NCBI GenBank assembly: GCA_022648165.1
Contig: JALCLX010000006.1
Span: 1-64,000, forward strand
Length of the DNA: 64,000 nt
Reading direction: 5' to 3'
Source: Ancrocorticia sp.
GTDB taxonomy: Bacteria > Actinomycetota > Actinomycetes > Actinomycetales > Actinomycetaceae
Made by a program: the position numbers and the translations under genes. Positions 1 through 11,721 of the stretch are shown here, piece after piece (the first letter of the stretch is position 1; every line of letters begins with the position of its first letter). Below the pieces are notes generated by a model that was not told where the DNA came from, did no database searches, and saw nothing but the letters and a program-made list of their open reading frames with translations.

Positions 1-181
1 CCCAAGTGCCATGACTCATGGTGAATTCTTGCGAGCGGATCATAAAAGCCGCCATAAGATCCGCCTTGCCCAGCGGGTATTCGTCTTTCATAAACTGTGA
101 GTACCGGGCTTGCCTGTCTTCGCATCTCAATTCGAGTTCCCCAAGCATGGCATACAGGTCTAACTCACGTTTCTGGTCACA

Positions 182-204
182 ATGGCTACCCCTATGGCTA
201 CCCC
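182..204 (+). repeat. Left copy of integrase-flanking repeat ATGGCTACCCC-T-ATGGCTACCCC
   Basis: Tandem 11-bp half-sites; 21/23 identical to 1474-1496. Confidence 0.9.
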
Positions 205-239
205 TCAGCACCCCGAGTATCAGGCATACGATTATTGGC

Positions 240-1457
240 ATGTCTGAGGGAAAGCAGCGAGGCAAGGGCACTGGTTCTATCTATCGGAATTCGCGAGGGC
301 AATGGGTAGCCTCGATTGAGGCTGGGTGGACAGAACGGGGAACTCGTCGTCGTATTACACTGAAGGCGCGCACAGAAGCTGCCGTGCGGCACCGCCTTGC
401 CGAGGCCCAGAAGCTCATTGAAGCGGGAGGTATTTCGGCACAGTCGTTCTGCAGTATCACAATGAAATGTTGGGCAGACCGGTGGCTGGAACAGCGTCAA
501 CTCATTGTGCGGCCTGGTACGTATGTTTCCGACCGCGCAGGTGTACACCGATGGATAGTTCCAACCATCGGCCATATCCGGCTTGAAGCCTTGACCCCGA
601 GAGACATCCGGAAAGTGGCGGCCGCACAAGAATCAGCTGGGCTTGCCTTGCCCACGATGCAGCGCACCCACGCAGTCCTCGGAAAACTTCTGTCCGATGC
701 TGTTGCCGAAGGATATAGAGTTCCACAACGCGCTCGGGAGGCCGGTAGTCCAGGTGTTGGAGCCTCTCCTCGGCAGCCTCTAGGCGCACAGGATGCCACA
801 AGAATCCTCTCTGTGGCTGCCCACCGCCCAGACGCATCGCGATGGTTTGCCGCCCTCCTCCAAGGGCTACGCCCTGCGGAGGCGCTAGGCCTGACGTGGG
901 ATATGGTGGATCTCGACGCCGCAACGATCACGTTGGCGTGGCAGCTCAAAGCGTTGCCTTATATTCAATTCCGAGAACCCGAAAGCGGTTTCCGCGTTCC
1001 CAGGGGCTTTGAATATCGCCAGATTCATGGCGCATACCACCTAGTCCGTCCCAAAACACGCGCTGGGAACCGCGTCATCCCGCTTGTTCCGAGGCTTGTG
1101 AGCGAGCTGGAATCGTGGGCACGCCATGCACCGCGATCAGAGTGCGGGCTTGTGTGGCCGCGTGAAGACGGTACTCCGCGCTCCGCCGAATTCGACCGCC
1201 GGCAGTGGTATGAAATCGCGGAGGAAGCCGGTGTGACGGTCACTCTTCCAGATGGCAGCACAAGAAGGCCACTCTTGTACGAGGCGCGGCATACGACGGC
1301 GACCTTACTTCTTGCCAACGGAACGGACGAAACCACTATTAAAGCTGTGCTGGGCCATTCCTCAGTACTTAGCACGCAGTCGTATCTGCATACAGATACA
1401 ACGCGCACGCGCGCAGCTTTGGCTGCTGCCGCGAAATTGGTCGGGCTCGGTGAGTAA
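240..1457 (+). CDS. Phage-type tyrosine recombinase/integrase (start probably at the ATG at 240, not the ORF start at 18)
   Basis: N-terminal MSEGKQRGKGTGSIYRNSRGQWVASIEAGWTERGTRR typical of actinobacterial integrases; catalytic-type motifs LRPAEALGLTW, YEARHTTATLLLANG (HxxR) and LGHSSVLSTQSYLHT (Tyr). Confidence 0.93.
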   Translation: MSEGKQRGKGTGSIYRNSRGQWVASIEAGWTERGTRRRITLKARTEAAVRHRLAEAQKLIEAGGISAQSFCSITMKCWADRWLEQRQLIVRPGTYVSDRAGVHRWIVPTIGHIRLEALTPRDIRKVAAAQESAGLALPTMQRTHAVLGKLLSDAVAEGYRVPQRAREAGSPGVGASPRQPLGAQDATRILSVAAHRPDASRWFAALLQGLRPAEALGLTWDMVDLDAATITLAWQLKALPYIQFREPESGFRVPRGFEYRQIHGAYHLVRPKTRAGNRVIPLVPRLVSELESWARHAPRSECGLVWPREDGTPRSAEFDRRQWYEIAEEAGVTVTLPDGSTRRPLLYEARHTTATLLLANGTDETTIKAVLGHSSVLSTQSYLHTDTTRTRAALAAAAKLVGLGE

Positions 1458-1473
1458 ACTTAGGCATGCGCAC

Positions 1474-1496
1474 ATGGCTACCCCAATGGCTACCCT
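1474..1496 (+). repeat. Right copy of integrase-flanking repeat ATGGCTACCCC-A-ATGGCTACCCT
   Basis: Same orientation as 182-204, just after the integrase stop codon. Confidence 0.9.
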
Positions 1497-1519
1497 TGGG
1501 TACGTGCGGGCACTAATCG

Positions 1520-2584
1520 ATGGCGAAAACAGACGCCCCTAATACTTTCTGGAAGGCAACTGGAGTGAAGACACTTGAACAGCTCGCTGTGGAACACAGA
1601 GAAGAATGGGCTCAACGTTCGCGCACGCAGCAGCGGCTGGAGATCGAGAACAACCAGGCTGTCGCTAAGCTCTACGACCTAGAGGATGAAATCAACTCCG
1701 ATGTTCCACTCGAACGCGTCTCACTCACCAACAACTCGGCATTCCGCTGGCCGGACAAGACGCAAGAAGAACGGGACACATTGTTCATCCAATCCGCTAT
1801 TGCTGACGTGGTTTCTTATGCCGTCGGTTGCATGTTTGGCCGCTACAGCTTGGATAAACCGGGCCTTATCCTGGCAGACCAGGGCGCCACGGTACAGGAC
1901 TACCTAGCGCAAGTACCACAGCCCACCTTCATGCCAGACGCGGACAACGTGCTACCGATCGTCGATGGCGACTGGTTTGAGGACGACGTCGTCGCCAAAT
2001 TCCGCGAGTTCTTGCGGGTCACGTTTGGCGAGGAACACTTCGAGGAGAACCTGCGGTTCGTAGAAGAATCGTTGGGCGTACAGACATTACGCGACTACTT
2101 CATTACAGGGAAAGGCAAATCGAAGTTTTATGAGGATCACGTTCAACGTTACAAGAAACGGCCAATCTATTGGATGTTCTCCAGCCCCAAGGGTTCCTTC
2201 AATGCGTTGATCTACATGCATCGGTACACGCCTTCCACAGTCTCGGCGGTTCTCAACGAGTATCTGCGTGAATATGAGGCGAAGCTCAACGTCAGCCTCC
2301 AAAACCTGGAACGTGACGCGAACAGTGGGAAGCTCCCCAGCAGGGGGGCTGCCGCAAAAGAGGCTGAACGCCTTCGCAAGATTTCTATAGAACTCAGTGA
2401 ATACGAACATGATGTGCTCTATCCACTAGCGTCGCGGCGCCTGGAGATTGATTTGGACGATGGCGTTCTAGTGAATTATCTGCGCTTTGGGAAGGCGCTC
2501 AAGGATATTGGACTTGAAAAGGAACGAAAGAAAGTAGAAGAGTGGACGTGGCCAAAGCACAAACTGGAGCCTGAAGATGCCTGA
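1520..2584 (+). pseudogene. pglX: C-terminal fragment of BREX type 1 adenine-specific methyltransferase PglX (no methyltransferase motifs)
   Basis: AVGCMFGRYSLDKPGLILADQGAT, FMPDADNVLPIVDGDWFEDDVVAKFREFLRVTFGEEHFEENLRF, KRPIYWMFSSPKGSFNALIYMHRY match the conserved PglX C-terminus; only 354 aa and no DPxxGSG/NPPY region. Confidence 0.85.
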
Positions 2585-2909
2585 GTGGCTGAACCTTGAT
2601 GCCCACGGCTATGTGACTGCGCATGAGGGTAAAACTCTTGAGTTTAAACGTGATCTATCTTCACCAACTAAGTTGTTGCGAACGATCGTCGCCTTTGCAA
2701 ATATGGAGTTTCTCCTCAAACATGCCTACAAGACGTCCGAGTTTGGCGAGGTTAAGCGGCGCGACGTTTACTCGATACCAGTGGAAGCAATCCGCGAAGT
2801 TATCGTCAATGCCATTGTCCATGCCAATTATGGCGAGCGCGGGACCCCGATCCGGGTCGGATTCTATGACGACCGCATCCAAGTGGACAGACAGGAGAGT
2901 AACAAATGA
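2577..2909 (+). pseudogene. AlbA_2/Schlafen-type putative ATP-binding (transcriptional regulator-like) protein, internally deleted
   Basis: N-terminal 'EGKTLEFKRDLSSPTKLLRTIVAFAN' (AlbA_2 start) joined to 'SIPVEAIREVIVNAIVHANYGERGTPIRVGFYDDRI' (GHKL-like segment); only 110 aa; overlaps both neighbours. Confidence 0.65.
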
Positions 2910-5401
2910 GCTCACTCACCTCGGTGCTCCCATACCTCGAAGAACAATTCACTTCACAGCGTCTAGTCTTTTGGCACGACCCCGAAAGCGACTATCTGGA
3001 AGATATTGATTCAATAGAGCTGCCAGACGTCACCGTTCTTGTAGTAGCCACCAACGAATTTGGGCTTAAGTATCGAATACTGCAGGAGGAACCTCACACC
3101 AAGTTCCTCATCTATCGAAACGGCACCATACCGGCGGAGATAGACAATTGGTTCCTTGACCTAGAATTGGCATACGGCGTATTCAGCGCTGATCGCACGG
3201 CATTACTCTGCCGTGATCTGGAACTGGCAGATGAAAACATTGCCATGGTACTTGAGCCCTACCAAAAGTTCTTCCGCTCAGGGAAACGAACCCAAGCCCT
3301 CAAAGCGCTTTTGAAACCAGACGATTCGGCCGATACAGTCCAGGCCAAGATGTGTGCCGTCTTATTGGGACAAACTGAACACAGCCTGCTGGAACTGATG
3401 CGCACGTTATTGAGCGAGAACGCGCACGGGGACGATTCGAAGTACCAATTGCTGCGTGAATATGGCCTGCTGGATTTTCATTGGCGTGGAGTGAAAAGGA
3501 TCTACGGTTATACTGCGGCAGCCCCAAGCATCGATGACTTTGTGCTGTGGATGTTTCGCCACGCTATTGATGACTTCAACAGCAATCAGCCAAACGAGTT
3601 CCGTCGGATTCAACTTGATTTCGAAAACCTGCGAAATGACCGGCGCAGCATGGCAGCACTCAAAACACTAGCCAGGCGCGCAGCACGTGACTTGGACTAC
3701 GCCAACACAATCCAAGATTCCAGTATTCCATCTCTCATTAGCAAGGATGTTTTCGAAGAGACTGAGCGGAAGATTATCAGCGCGTTAGCAAAACAAGTTT
3801 CTGATAGGACGATTAGCGCTCGGGAAGTTTCTGAGACTATCCGGCGCCGTCAATCCAGCATATGGGCGGATGATTATCGAGACCTCTATACAGCGATTGG
3901 CGCTGCATCTGAACTGCTTTCTCACTTAGCTAGTGATTCTTTTGAGATCCCCTCCTTTGATGATGGGCTGCAAAAGTACCAGCGAGAGTGGTTCCGGATA
4001 GACCAGCTTTACCGCCACTTCCAAGCAGCCTTGCGTACTGATGAACGCAGCGGTGCGGTAGATATGCTACGAAGCGAAATTGAGGCTCGTTACGTCAACA
4101 AGTATCTATTCGAGCTCGGTACACAATGGCAACACCACGTAGATGCCGCCAAAACATGGCAGTCACATACTCTGCCCCTGCAATCTGCCTTCTATCACGA
4201 TTGGGTAGAACCGATTATTGGCAAGGGAACGAAGAAGGCAGTTGTTATCGTCTCCGATGCTATGCGCTACGAAGTCGCGGACGAACTCGGTACCCGTATT
4301 CGGCAAGAAGATCGCTTTGACGCCACTGTAGATGCGATACTAGGAGTCTTGCCGAGCTACACCCAACTCGGCATGGCGGCACTTCTGCCACATCGGACAC
4401 TTGCGTTTTCCGAAGATGGAGACCCTGTGCTGGTTGATGGTGAGCGCTCCGACGGCACCGCGAACCGCAACAAAATACTCGAAACAGTAGATGGTTACGC
4501 GATCCAGGCCGAGGATATCTTGGCGATGAACAATAAAGACCTCAAACGGCTTTACACAGAGCATCACGTGTTCTACGTATTTCACAACGGAATAGACGCA
4601 GCAGGTGACAAGGCATCAACGGAGCGTTCTGTTTTTGAGGCAGCTAAGACGGCTATCGACACCCTGGTTAAGTTGGTAAAGAAGCTAGCGAGTGCAAATG
4701 CAACAAACATCTTTGTGACCACAGATCACGGTTTTCTGTACCAAGAGAGCCCCTTGGCGGACGCCGGCTATCTTTCGACCAAACCTTCCGGCGATAACTG
4801 TGTAGTGATCAACCGCCGTTACGTTCTGGGGCGGGGTTTGAAGGAAGATCCTGCATTTGCGCTTTTTGAGCCGCAACAATTGGGATTGGGAGGTGACCTG
4901 CAAGTGCAGATCCCCAAGTCGATACATCGGCTACGCTTGAAAGGCTCTGGCTCAAGATATGTCCATGGTGGGGCGGCGCTTCAAGAGGTCGTGATACCGG
5001 TGGTAGCAGTCAACAAGAAGCGTAAGAGTGACGTCCGCGAGGTCAACGTCGAGGTGCTGCCCGAAACGGACAAGATCACAACCGGACAGCTGGTAGTGAA
5101 GCTCTATCAAAGCGAACCAGTGAACGAAAAAGTTCAACCACGCACGCTCCGGGCAGGCCTTTATGCTGGTGAAACGCTCATTTCAAACCAGCCTGAACTA
5201 ACCTTTGATCAAGCGTCTGACGACGTGCGGGATAGATATCAAAACGCAAAGATTCTGCTCGGCAAAGAGGCCGACGCGTTCAATAACCATCAAGTGGAAT
5301 TCCGGCTAGAAGAAAGGATTCCAAACACCACAAATTGGCGGGTCTATCAACGAGCCTCATATATGTTGCGCCGCTCATTTACCACCGATTTCGATTTCTA
5401 G
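2906..5401 (+). CDS. pglZ: BREX type 1 alkaline phosphatase superfamily protein PglZ
   Basis: 831 aa; KKAVVIVSDAMRYEVADEL and TDHGFLYQ motifs; downstream of pglX fragment, upstream of brxL. Confidence 0.92.
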   Translation: MSSLTSVLPYLEEQFTSQRLVFWHDPESDYLEDIDSIELPDVTVLVVATNEFGLKYRILQEEPHTKFLIYRNGTIPAEIDNWFLDLELAYGVFSADRTALLCRDLELADENIAMVLEPYQKFFRSGKRTQALKALLKPDDSADTVQAKMCAVLLGQTEHSLLELMRTLLSENAHGDDSKYQLLREYGLLDFHWRGVKRIYGYTAAAPSIDDFVLWMFRHAIDDFNSNQPNEFRRIQLDFENLRNDRRSMAALKTLARRAARDLDYANTIQDSSIPSLISKDVFEETERKIISALAKQVSDRTISAREVSETIRRRQSSIWADDYRDLYTAIGAASELLSHLASDSFEIPSFDDGLQKYQREWFRIDQLYRHFQAALRTDERSGAVDMLRSEIEARYVNKYLFELGTQWQHHVDAAKTWQSHTLPLQSAFYHDWVEPIIGKGTKKAVVIVSDAMRYEVADELGTRIRQEDRFDATVDAILGVLPSYTQLGMAALLPHRTLAFSEDGDPVLVDGERSDGTANRNKILETVDGYAIQAEDILAMNNKDLKRLYTEHHVFYVFHNGIDAAGDKASTERSVFEAAKTAIDTLVKLVKKLASANATNIFVTTDHGFLYQESPLADAGYLSTKPSGDNCVVINRRYVLGRGLKEDPAFALFEPQQLGLGGDLQVQIPKSIHRLRLKGSGSRYVHGGAALQEVVIPVVAVNKKRKSDVREVNVEVLPETDKITTGQLVVKLYQSEPVNEKVQPRTLRAGLYAGETLISNQPELTFDQASDDVRDRYQNAKILLGKEADAFNNHQVEFRLEERIPNTTNWRVYQRASYMLRRSFTTDFDF

Positions 5402-5416
5402 GAGGAGCGCATCGAC

Positions 5417-7615
5417 ATGGACGTTTCAGACCTGGATCCAACAAGCACTATCAGTGCGGAGACTCACGACGCAGAATTGAACCACCCACAACAGAGCGAA
5501 CTGGACCAAAAGATCAACCGGTATTTCCCCGGCGTCGTCGTTCGCAAAGATTTAGTGAGAGCGGTCAAGGGCAATGCGATCGTTCCCTCCTATGTGCTGG
5601 AATACCTGTTGGGGCAATATGCGGCATCTGATGATGAAGCCACCATTCGGGCAGGGATTGAAGCGGTGCGGAAGATTCTGGCCGCCCACTACGTTCACCG
5701 CAACGAATCCGAGCTAGTTAAATCGATGATCCGAGAAAAGGGACGCCACCGAATCATAGACAGAGTCAACGTAGTACTCAACGAAAAGGCAGACACCTAC
5801 GAAGCTTCGTTCGAAAACCTGGGAATTCGTGGGGTGATTATCGATCCAGATACCGTCAAAGCGAATAAAAAACTGCTGGTGGGCGGCGTGTGGTGCATCT
5901 GCGACATCGAATACTCTCATTCTGATGATCCACGAGTAGTGCCCTGGATCTTAGGCTCACTCAAGCCAATCCAGATGTCGAGTTTCGATTTTGACGGGTA
6001 CTTAGCTGCTCGGCGCGAGTTCACAAATGATGAATGGGTAGATCTTCTCATCCAGACCATTGGCTTCAATCCAAAAATGTTCGGGCGCCGGGCAAAGCTG
6101 CTCCAACTTGTACGGCTTATTCCTTTCGTAGAGCGCAACTATAACCTCATCGAACTTGGGCCCAAGGGAACCGGAAAGTCTCACATATTTTCCGAATTCT
6201 CACCCCATGGAATGCTGATCTCCGGTGGCGAAGTGACGGTTCCAAAGCTATTCGTGAACAACTCCAACGGAAAAATTGGTTTGGTCGGCTACTGGGACGT
6301 GGTGGCATTCGATGAGTTCGCGGGCAAGAAGAAGCGCACAGACAAGGCGCTTGTCGACATCATGAAGAACTACATGGCGAACAAGTCTTTCTCACGCGGT
6401 ACACAAACCATGGGTGCAGAGGCATCCATGGTTTTCGTTGGCAACACCTCACATACAGTGCCCTATATGCTCAAGAACTCAGATCTGTTTGATGAGCTTC
6501 CGGATGCGTACCATGACTCTGCATTCCTGGATCGTCTGCACTGCTACATTCCCGGCTGGGAAGTAGATACGATCCGCAGTGAGATGTTTTCCAGTGGATA
6601 CGGATTCGTAGTTGATTACATGGCAGAAGTTCTGCGATCAATGCGCAACAGCGATTTTTCTGACAAGTATCAGAGGTATTGCACTCTCGGATCTGCGATC
6701 TCTACGCGCGACAGAGACGGCATTCACAAGACGTTCTCCGGACTGATGAAGATCATCTACCCAACAGGAGAAGCCACTGAAGACGAGATTCAAGAGCTCC
6801 TGCGCTTTGCGATCGAAGGGCGTAAGCGGGTGAAGGACCAGATTCTGCGCGTTGACGCGACCTTTGATCCCGTCAAGTTCGGGTATTCCGACAGAGCAGG
6901 TGGCTGGCATCCGGTCACTACCGTGGAAGAGAACGAATATCCTGCGTTCTATTATCTGGGCCGCACGGTTGCACCACCCGAAGATGGATCTGGTGAATGG
7001 GAATCCTCTGCGAAATCAGACGCATCGGTTGCTACGGTGCAAGGAGAATCCGGCTTACTGGATAATGCAGCAGGCCAAGCTGACGCCACGGAACAGGACC
7101 GTACGAATGCTCCGTATGAGGCTCCCTTATTCGAAGGACAACGCGACTACGCAGAGAATCAACGCGGCGTATCGTATGAGGCTCTCTTCTTGCCGTATCT
7201 GCGTGGTGCAACTCAGATTGAAATCCACGATCCATACATTCGGCAACCTCATCAAGGGCGCAACTTGGTGGAGTTCCTGGAGCTTGTTGCCTCTGCCAAG
7301 GATCCCGCAGACGAGGTTACATTCACCCTCTATACTGTCGCCGACGACGATCCGGAATACCGACGGCGCCAACTACAAATGTTGAGAGATATACAAATAA
7401 GTGCGGCGCAGGAGGGCATCACCGTTAGTTTTGCGCAGGAAGCTGGCGCACACGACCGCTGGATCCATACCAATACCGGTTGGAGAATCAACCTCGGACG
7501 CGGCCTCGACATATTCCAAAAGTCGGACACTGGATGGTTTGATCTTGGGACCAGCCGCCAAGAATTTCGGCAGGTCAAAGCATTTGGTGTTACCTACATC
7601 AGGGAAGCTAAATAG
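5417..7615 (+). CDS. brxL: BREX system Lon protease-like protein BrxL
   Basis: 732 aa; GPKGTGKSHIFSEFSPHGMLISGGEVTVPKLFVN, GYWDVVAFDEFAG; C-terminal PLD-like 'ATQIEIHDPYIRQPHQGRNLVEFLELV'. Confidence 0.93.
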   Translation: MDVSDLDPTSTISAETHDAELNHPQQSELDQKINRYFPGVVVRKDLVRAVKGNAIVPSYVLEYLLGQYAASDDEATIRAGIEAVRKILAAHYVHRNESELVKSMIREKGRHRIIDRVNVVLNEKADTYEASFENLGIRGVIIDPDTVKANKKLLVGGVWCICDIEYSHSDDPRVVPWILGSLKPIQMSSFDFDGYLAARREFTNDEWVDLLIQTIGFNPKMFGRRAKLLQLVRLIPFVERNYNLIELGPKGTGKSHIFSEFSPHGMLISGGEVTVPKLFVNNSNGKIGLVGYWDVVAFDEFAGKKKRTDKALVDIMKNYMANKSFSRGTQTMGAEASMVFVGNTSHTVPYMLKNSDLFDELPDAYHDSAFLDRLHCYIPGWEVDTIRSEMFSSGYGFVVDYMAEVLRSMRNSDFSDKYQRYCTLGSAISTRDRDGIHKTFSGLMKIIYPTGEATEDEIQELLRFAIEGRKRVKDQILRVDATFDPVKFGYSDRAGGWHPVTTVEENEYPAFYYLGRTVAPPEDGSGEWESSAKSDASVATVQGESGLLDNAAGQADATEQDRTNAPYEAPLFEGQRDYAENQRGVSYEALFLPYLRGATQIEIHDPYIRQPHQGRNLVEFLELVASAKDPADEVTFTLYTVADDDPEYRRRQLQMLRDIQISAAQEGITVSFAQEAGAHDRWIHTNTGWRINLGRGLDIFQKSDTGWFDLGTSRQEFRQVKAFGVTYIREAK

Positions 7616-9735: not shown

Positions 9736-10386
9736 ATGAATACCAGCAAAGAAGCCCAGCGCGCTGAGCTCCATAAGAATATCTGGCGGATAGCAAACGA
9801 TCTGCGTGGGAGCGTTGATGGCTGAGATTTCAAGTCCTATGTGCTGGGAATGCTGTTTTTCGGTTCATCTCTGAGAACTTGACATCCTACTTCAATGAGG
9901 AAGAACGGGCGGCAGGTAATCCCGATTTTGATTACGCGAAGATCTCTGATGCGGATGCTGAGTTTGGCCGTACAGATACGGTTTCCGATAAGGGTTTCTA
10001 TATCTTGCCGTCGGAGTTGTTTGAGAACGTTCGCCGGAAGGCCGCTACGGATGAGAATCTCAACGAGACTCTGGAACATGTTTTCACCAACATCGAGGGT
10101 TCGGCTAAAGGCACTGAGTCTGAGGATGATCTGAAGGGCCTTTTCGATGATTTGGATGTCAACTCTTCCAAGCTGGGGGCAACTGTTGCCACGCGTAATG
10201 AGAAGCTCGTCAAGCTTCTGAACGCTATCGGGGATCTCCAGCTTGGCACGTTCTCAGAGAATACGATCGATACTTTTGGGGATGCCTATGAGTATTTGAT
10301 GACGATGTACGCCTCAAGTACCGGAAAATCCGGTGGAGAGTTCTTCACTCCGCAGGAGGTTTCTGAGCTGCTTGCGAGGATAACAG
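9736..10386 (+). pseudogene. hsdM: N-terminal part of type I restriction methyltransferase HsdM, with TGG->TGA nonsense at 9823 and a 1-nt deletion near 9856-9860
   Basis: MNTSKEAQRAELHKNIWRIANDLRGSVDG* then (frame-corrected) RFISENLTSYFNEEERAAGNPDFDYAK...FGDAYEYLMTMYASSTGKSGGEFFTPQEVSELLARITV; SAM-binding and NPPF motifs absent. Confidence 0.85.
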
Positions 10387-10748
10387 TGGTGGTGCAAAAC
10401 AAGCTGCATTTCGCTGCTCACAAACACACTACGGCGGAGGTCATTGCGGCGCGCGCAGATGCCACCAAACCGAACATGGGCCTGACCACCTGGAAAAGTG
10501 CACCGAGCGGCAAGATTGTGAAAACTGACGTATCCATCGCCAAAAACTACCTCAGTGATCAAGAACTAGACTTCCTCAACCGGATCGTCACCATGTATCT
10601 GCACTATGCCGAACTCCACGCCGAAACCGAGTTCGAGAAATACCGCATCATCCAAGACCAGCAGTACGTCAGCGACTTCGACCGCTTCCTCCACCTTGAG
10701 GCCACCACAACAGAACTGACCGATAGCACTGAAGGAAGCGCCAAATGA
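10387..10748 (+). pseudogene. C-terminal part of RhuM family protein fused in frame to hsdM (same ORF 9879-10748)
   Basis: NKLHFAAHKHTTAEVIAARADATKPNMGLTTWK...GKIVKTDVSIAKNYLSDQELDFLNRIVTMYLHYAELHA...YVSDFDRFLHLE is RhuM-like. Confidence 0.75.
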
Positions 10749-10858
10749 GCCACATCAATGAGCTGAGCATCGGTTTGCCTGCGGAATTGGCTGCGCGTCG
10801 TAAGCAGTACGAGTATTATCGGGACAAGTTGCTGACATTCAAGGAGTTACCAGCATGA
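10745..10858 (+). pseudogene. hsdS: HsdS remnant (37 aa): N-terminus joined to extreme C-terminus
   Basis: MSHINELSIGLPAELAARRKQYEYYRDKLLTFKELPA*; C-terminus is the typical HsdS tail; ATGA overlaps at both ends. Confidence 0.75.
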
Positions 10859-11721
10859 GTGTCATACCCGTCAACGTGCAGATTCCAAGTGATCCGCACG
10901 CCCCGATGATCGCCGATTTTGTGGAACATGCGCTACGAATCGCGTATGTGGATCGCGACCATCTTGCGGCGATCCCCAGCGATGACTGGGATGTGCCGGG
11001 GGTCTATATCCTCCTCACCGGCGACGGCAGCGGACAGGTGTATGTGGGCCAGGCCCGGCGTATGAGACAGCGGCTGGGCCAACACAACAGCAGGCCGAAG
11101 CTGCCGTGGACGCGTGCCGTGATGGTCAAACGTGACACCACCAACGGCTTCAATACAGCAGAGATCGGCTACCTTGAGGGCCGCGTATCCGCTGAGGTGA
11201 AGGCACTCAAAGGCATTACGCTCATTGCCGGGCAGTCTGCTGGAGACGAGACTCTTCCCACCCACATGATGCTGTCACTCGATGCCTTCGTGAAGAGCAT
11301 CCTCACCGCGCTCCGGCTTGCTGGAGTAGACATCTCCCGAGCACAGCTAGAGGAGGCTGAGGAGGAGCAGCTTCACGTTCTGGAGAAGGGTGCAAGCGCG
11401 CAGGGATTGGCCAGTCGGGCGACGTTCGCGTGCACCGTTTCAGCCCTCGTATCGAGCGGATTGCTGCGTGCTGGTGAGGACCTCTACCTGCACCAGGGAA
11501 CCGTCAACGGCCACGGAACAGTCACGGCGGCCGGGGAGGTCATTGTCAACGGAGTGACATACATGACTCCGAGTGCGGCCGCTGTTGCCGCGCTCGGTCT
11601 GCAGTCATCGAACGGCTGGACCACCTGGCACGTGGGCTCGCTCGACGGCGTCACCCTGGACCAGCTTCGCAAGAAGTGGCAGCAGCGGCAGCGAGTTGAA
11701 CGGGCCGAGGACAACGCATGA
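10855..11721 (+). CDS. GIY-YIG nuclease family protein (C-terminal region DUF4357-like)
   Basis: PGVYILLTGDGSGQVYVGQARRMRQRLGQH; 288 aa, uninterrupted; within the type I R-M operon. Confidence 0.85.
   Translation: MSVIPVNVQIPSDPHAPMIADFVEHALRIAYVDRDHLAAIPSDDWDVPGVYILLTGDGSGQVYVGQARRMRQRLGQHNSRPKLPWTRAVMVKRDTTNGFNTAEIGYLEGRVSAEVKALKGITLIAGQSAGDETLPTHMMLSLDAFVKSILTALRLAGVDISRAQLEEAEEEQLHVLEKGASAQGLASRATFACTVSALVSSGLLRAGEDLYLHQGTVNGHGTVTAAGEVIVNGVTYMTPSAAAVAALGLQSSNGWTTWHVGSLDGVTLDQLRKKWQQRQRVERAEDNA

Follow-up and report, generated by a model that had tools for sequence, protein, structure and literature searches.

A tyrosine recombinase beside a split PglX points to a probable nested inversion system at an actinobacterial BREX type 1 locus

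Introduction

In a BREX type 1 locus of Lactobacillus rhamnosus, a site-specific integrase separates a full-length pglX (1198 aa) from a partial one (743 aa) (PMC7513527), and that report likened its locus to the L. rhamnosus GG locus of Goldfarb et al. 2015. The inversion of hsdS in type I restriction-modification has been well studied, for example at the cod locus of Streptococcus pneumoniae with its recombinase PsrA (PMC4948785, PMC7096588).

The locus analyzed here resembled that of L. rhamnosus in that both belong to BREX type 1 and have a second partial pglX beside a site-specific recombinase, an arrangement for which pglX phase variation has been proposed. In contrast to the full-length PglX of L. 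rhamnosus, the genes for the N- and C-terminal parts flank the integrase in the present locus and up to three conserved internal sites are found, a distinction drawn from the published description. The hsdS systems also have a tyrosine recombinase at a methylation locus, and inversions between their recognition genes reassort target recognition domains (TRDs); however, the target here is the BREX protein PglX, whose TRD lies within the methyltransferase, and the recombinase and sites are different. Recombinase-linked pglX cassettes are thus known in lactobacilli, while the split, the multiple sites and the actinobacterial clade look new; no description of a split PglX or of a multi-site or three-site BREX form was found in the literature searched, to which Goldfarb et al. 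2015 did not belong. Based on the sequence comparisons below, we propose, with a probability of about 0.85, that a nested site-specific inversion system reassorts the recognition segments of PglX and that a switchable and a constant subunit together make up the split PglX.

Results

The window holds the right half of a BREX type 1 locus

The window, which is the whole stretch of 64,000 nucleotides that was analyzed (C6:1-64000), comes from a genome of 2.18 Mb in 18 contigs. At its left edge (position 1) contig C6 ends, a fact that had been overlooked when the sequence was first read. The features at this end are as follows.

1-99, minus strand: first part of a pglX cassette in inverted orientation, which reads left from 99 and off the contig
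75-99, minus strand: proposed recombination site I (CACAGTTTATGAAAGACGAATACCC); the same site is at L007:14653-14677
182-203, plus strand: paired 11-bp repeat ahead of the integrase, a proposed arm-type binding site
240-1457, plus strand: locus-dedicated tyrosine recombinase (Pfam match, invariant R/R/H/Y, 11 homologous loci)
1474-1495, plus strand: second paired repeat, following the integrase gene
1520-2584, plus strand: pglX-C, constant C-terminal subunit of the split PglX; the GTG at 1565 is its probable start
2577-2909, plus strand: decayed accessory gene of AlbA/Schlafen type, with 110 of about 493 aa remaining
2906-5401, plus strand: pglZ (BREX-1 type A; TIGR02687, 738 bits against a cut-off of 270)
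5417-7615, plus strand: brxL (TIGR02688, 621 bits against a cut-off of 329)

The family matches confirmed pglZ and brxL on the same strand downstream of pglX-C, as the earlier note on this DNA had stated. That note had also asked whether brxA, brxB and brxC lie elsewhere in the genome, and contig C5 was found to carry all three intact (BrxA, PF08849; BrxB, PF08747; BrxC, NF033441), followed by the N-terminus of pglX (NF033452), which is cut by the contig end. The complete BREX type 1 gene set (brxA, brxB, brxC, pglX, pglZ and brxL) is present on C5 and C6, save for a gap inside pglX, and the window holds the 3' half of this complete locus, which a contig break has divided. The gene order in relatives, rather than any sequence across the gap, indicates that C5 and C6 are probably adjacent. 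The end of C5 was the only other strong PglX match in the genome. A search of the smaller contigs, the smallest being 11 kb, for the missing cassette DNA gave no further notable pglX match, and the second copy of 1520-2584 that had earlier been envisaged was not found in the genome.

The neighboring genes showed several additional features. The product of the decayed gene at 2577-2909 mapped mainly to residues 1-42 and 247-308 of an intact homologue in L017, which contains SLFN_AlbA_2 and HATPase_c_4 domains; this slot between pglX-C and pglZ is variable, being occupied by an AlbA-type gene in L017 and a RhuM-type gene in L008. BrxL has a PLD-like MIT_C domain at its C-terminal end. Further downstream, the gene at 9879-10748 joins an N-terminal part of HsdM (residues 1-175) to a C-terminal part of RhuM (171-275), possibly as a fusion or relic, and the gene at 10855-11721 encodes GIY-YIG-like and RAMA domains and matches the PADLOC candidate PDC-S14 at 4e-103.

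PglX is encoded in two parts

The open reading frame at 1520-2584 matched positions 901-1209 of the 1210 in the BREX-1 PglX model NF033452 (5e-108), in agreement with its earlier description as a lone PglX C-terminus, and aligned with the C-terminal residues 913-1194 or 929-1214 of solved PglX/BrxX chains. The GTG at 1565, with GGAAGG upstream, is the likelier start because the homologues begin at the same (L/V)KTLEQ. The pglX-C gene is under purifying selection (dN/dS 0.10-0.21).

The PglX-N of this genome covered model positions 1-693 up to the contig end. Among the homologous loci, the PglX-N reading frame of L013 corresponded to positions 1-903 and its inverted cassette to 522-904, and the pglX-C of L017 corresponded to 905-1209. 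As the N-terminal (1-903) and C-terminal (905-1209) parts tile the model, the split loses nothing. The module at 1520-2584 encodes the constant C-terminal subunit; it is not the switching cassette, and PglX-N and PglX-C would be expected to assemble. BREX type 1 is characterized by a single full-length PglX of about 1200 aa, whereas two reading frames were found here; judged by its sequence, the locus is better treated as a BREX type 1 variant than as the canonical form. The domain roles of PglX were taken from PMC11842806 and PMC11341690, and the published boundaries in Salmonella PglX give residues 662-849 for the TRD and 850-960 for the spacer helices (PMC11341690).

The tyrosine recombinase is bracketed by paired repeats

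The integrase frame at 240-1457 was intact and contained a Pfam Phage_integrase domain (5e-13) and a SAM-like N-domain. In an alignment of 13 homologues, R211, R350, H373 and Y382 (numbering of the window protein) were invariant, which bears out its initial identification as a tyrosine recombinase, and dN/dS values of about 0.05-0.10 indicated purifying selection. The selection on both the integrase and pglX-C argues against decay. The nearest integrase relatives found outside BREX were 52-54% identical and came from viral contigs (IMG/VR, L055-L057); they shared the active-site residues but differed in their viral setting and in having no GGCTACCC pairs beside them. No plasmid match was found at 1e-40, and the sister genomes of the genus had no close integrase or PglZ, hence no empty site was available for comparison.

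We found that a paired repeat, ATGGCTACCCCnATGGCTACCC, which had escaped notice in the first reading, brackets the integrase at 182-203 and 1474-1495. These two copies were the only ones in the genome, with 0 expected by chance from shuffles of the window. Similar GGCTACCC pairs were located upstream of the integrase in all 10 other loci for which upstream sequence was present, and several loci had a second such pair downstream. We propose from their position only that these pairs are putative recombinase binding sites. The integrase lies alone between the 22-bp repeats, which do not bound other element genes as the attL and attR of an integrative element would, and its position is conserved across genera. 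The earlier note had called the integrase phage/ICE-type and had taken this to favor an element that cut the locus; the viral relatives uphold the phage-type assignment but the element reading did not hold, and on sequence evidence the integrase appears to be a resident component of the system, maintained by purifying selection.

The same layout recurs in other actinobacteria

We identified 11 close relatives of the integrase (70-81% identity over the best segment) in other actinobacterial genomes and MAGs, in addition to two distant ones at 22%. All 11 close relatives had pglX fragments beside the integrase. The six loci with full context (L008, L009, L012, L013, L016 and L017) each contained brxABC, pglX-N, an inverted cassette, the integrase and pglX-C, and the remaining loci were cut by contig ends. 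The order was brxA-brxB-brxC-pglX-N with cassette A, then cassette B inverted and tail-to-tail with A, then the recombinase and a separate pglX-C, so that in the full-context loci the recombinase gene adjoins the presumably invertible DNA, as in inversion systems. The pglZ and brxL genes followed in five of the six and lay further right on the other strand in L012. The forward cassettes L009:6153-8686 and L012:6033-8640 appeared to be frameshifted, which may reflect off-states, decay or sequence errors.

Apart from this genome, five in a sample of 395 from the class contained a PglX C-terminus, in open frames of 721-1208 aa, the shortest of which sits on a 3.6-kb contig. None of these five genomes had an integrase match at 1e-70.

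Inverted cassettes share two or three conserved sites

Window positions 1-99 were 100% identical over 99 bp, in inverted orientation, to L007:14653-14751 on C5. This fragment, also missed at first, matched the PglX models just past the NPPY motif and is an inverted copy of the start of the pglX variable segment. The switching cassette is on the minus strand to the left of the integrase and continues past the contig end. The less favored reading of the earlier note, a switchable pglX with its partner to the left, was right in kind, but it had assigned the switching role to the wrong module, 1520-2584. Cassettes A and B span model positions of about 522-904.

Inverted-repeat analysis and cassette alignment yielded three conserved stretches, I (CACAGTTCATGAAGGACGAGTACCC), II (CCGATCGTCTACTGGCTCAGTGAAAAGATGCG) and III (ACGTACTTTTCACCGTCCGTGTCATGGTC), which occur as inverted copies at the segment boundaries. 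Site I follows the NPPY motif, site II lies at the hinge between the methyltransferase and the TRD, and site III is in the middle of the TRD in some loci; when aligned to Salmonella PglX, the three sites map near residues 524-531, 657-666 and 772-781, respectively. No site III was found in L008, L013 or L014_A. In this genome site I was seen in both copies and site II in one; the assembly lacks the rest of both cassettes beyond the end of C5. The two or three short sites common to the cassettes are conserved at the nucleotide level beyond coding need: where amino acids were identical, codon identity was 0.87 at site I, 0.79 at site II and 0.65 at site III against a background of 0.46, values from sites chosen in the same data and from sliding windows that were ranked (I and II on top) with no formal significance test. 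Full-length pglX genes in other genomes of the class lacked the sites and showed an overall codon identity of 0.465.

Comparisons between species revealed opposite orientations with breakpoints at sites I and III. L008 and L009 were collinear at 87% up to site I, after which L008 7603-8071 matched L009 9861-9393 in inverted orientation at 90.7%, the A cassette of one corresponding to the B cassette of the other, and collinearity returned at the other copy of site I. The same pattern was observed for L012 and L016 with breakpoints at site III, where the first segments matched A-to-A and B-to-B and the last segments A-to-B and B-to-A. Segment types are thus reassorted between the A and B positions.

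Contigs also broke off at or near the sites: L015 stops exactly 24 nt into site I, L018 stops within site II, the end of C6 is 99 bp away from where site I starts, and C5 continues for 54 nt beyond site II. These ends suggest switching within strains, although such breaks may also stem from plain repeats, and for C5 and C6 a fixed copy of the cassette's first segment would account for the break as well. We infer switching in this particular strain.

A simpler explanation is a two-state switch in which site I is the only recombinase site, with sites II and III kept by coding constraint or gene conversion. The conservation of site I is the strongest, its homology boundary (CACAG, just after the NPPY motif) was identical in all loci compared, and site III is absent from some cassettes, as this explanation would allow; however, the site III breakpoints of L012 and L016, the codon conservation of II and III above background and the contig end inside site II of L018 do not fit, and we consider it unlikely. 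Alternatively, the cassettes could be shuffled by RecA-dependent recombination, with the integrase as a bystander. Near-identical inverted A/B stretches of 180-300 bp in some loci would suit such a process, but the conserved cores span only about 25-32 bp in most loci, an integrase accompanied every split or cassette-type pglX examined (the loci having been found through the integrase) and the sampled genomes with full-length pglX yielded none, which makes this alternative improbable. The reading favored by the earlier note, a static remnant in which an integrative element inserted into pglX and brxA, brxB, brxC and the pglX N-terminus were lost, drew on the phage-type integrase and on a window that contains only the 3' half of the locus, and we rejected it as highly improbable, since the upstream genes are present and syntenic on C5 (including pglX and brxC, whose absence from the whole genome had been envisaged), the integrase stands beside a split or cassette-type pglX in 11 other actinobacteria in many lineages, and integrase and pglX-C are under purifying selection.

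Discussion

In the proposed nested inversion system, the recombinase, aided by the neighboring GGCTACCC pairs, would invert the DNA between matching sites. Inversion at site I would swap the whole cassette, and inversion at sites II and III would swap inner segments, which could generate up to four PglX-N variants with two sites or eight with three sites. Each variant would join the constant PglX-C to form a functional BREX methyltransferase and specificity factor, and the cells of one population would methylate, and exclude phage by, different motifs. The recognition variants, the pairing of the N- and C-terminal parts and the altered methylation are predictions made from sequence. Taken to its full extent, the proposal describes a BREX specificity shufflon, in which a domesticated phage-type integrase, three nested site pairs, up to eight PglX-N variants and a separately encoded constant PglX-C would make anti-phage specificity combinatorial within a single clone, and would do so across actinobacteria; we regard the odds of this complete version as about even.

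Alignment to Salmonella PglX puts the natural split of PglX at the spacer helices, close to residues 890-930, which suggests that the C-terminal domain is able to act as a separate subunit and bears on the assembly of PglX with BrxB, BrxC and PglZ. The locus supplies defined sites and a defined recombinase for testing. If the proposal is true, BREX specificity would be varied by programmed recombination, like that of type I restriction systems.
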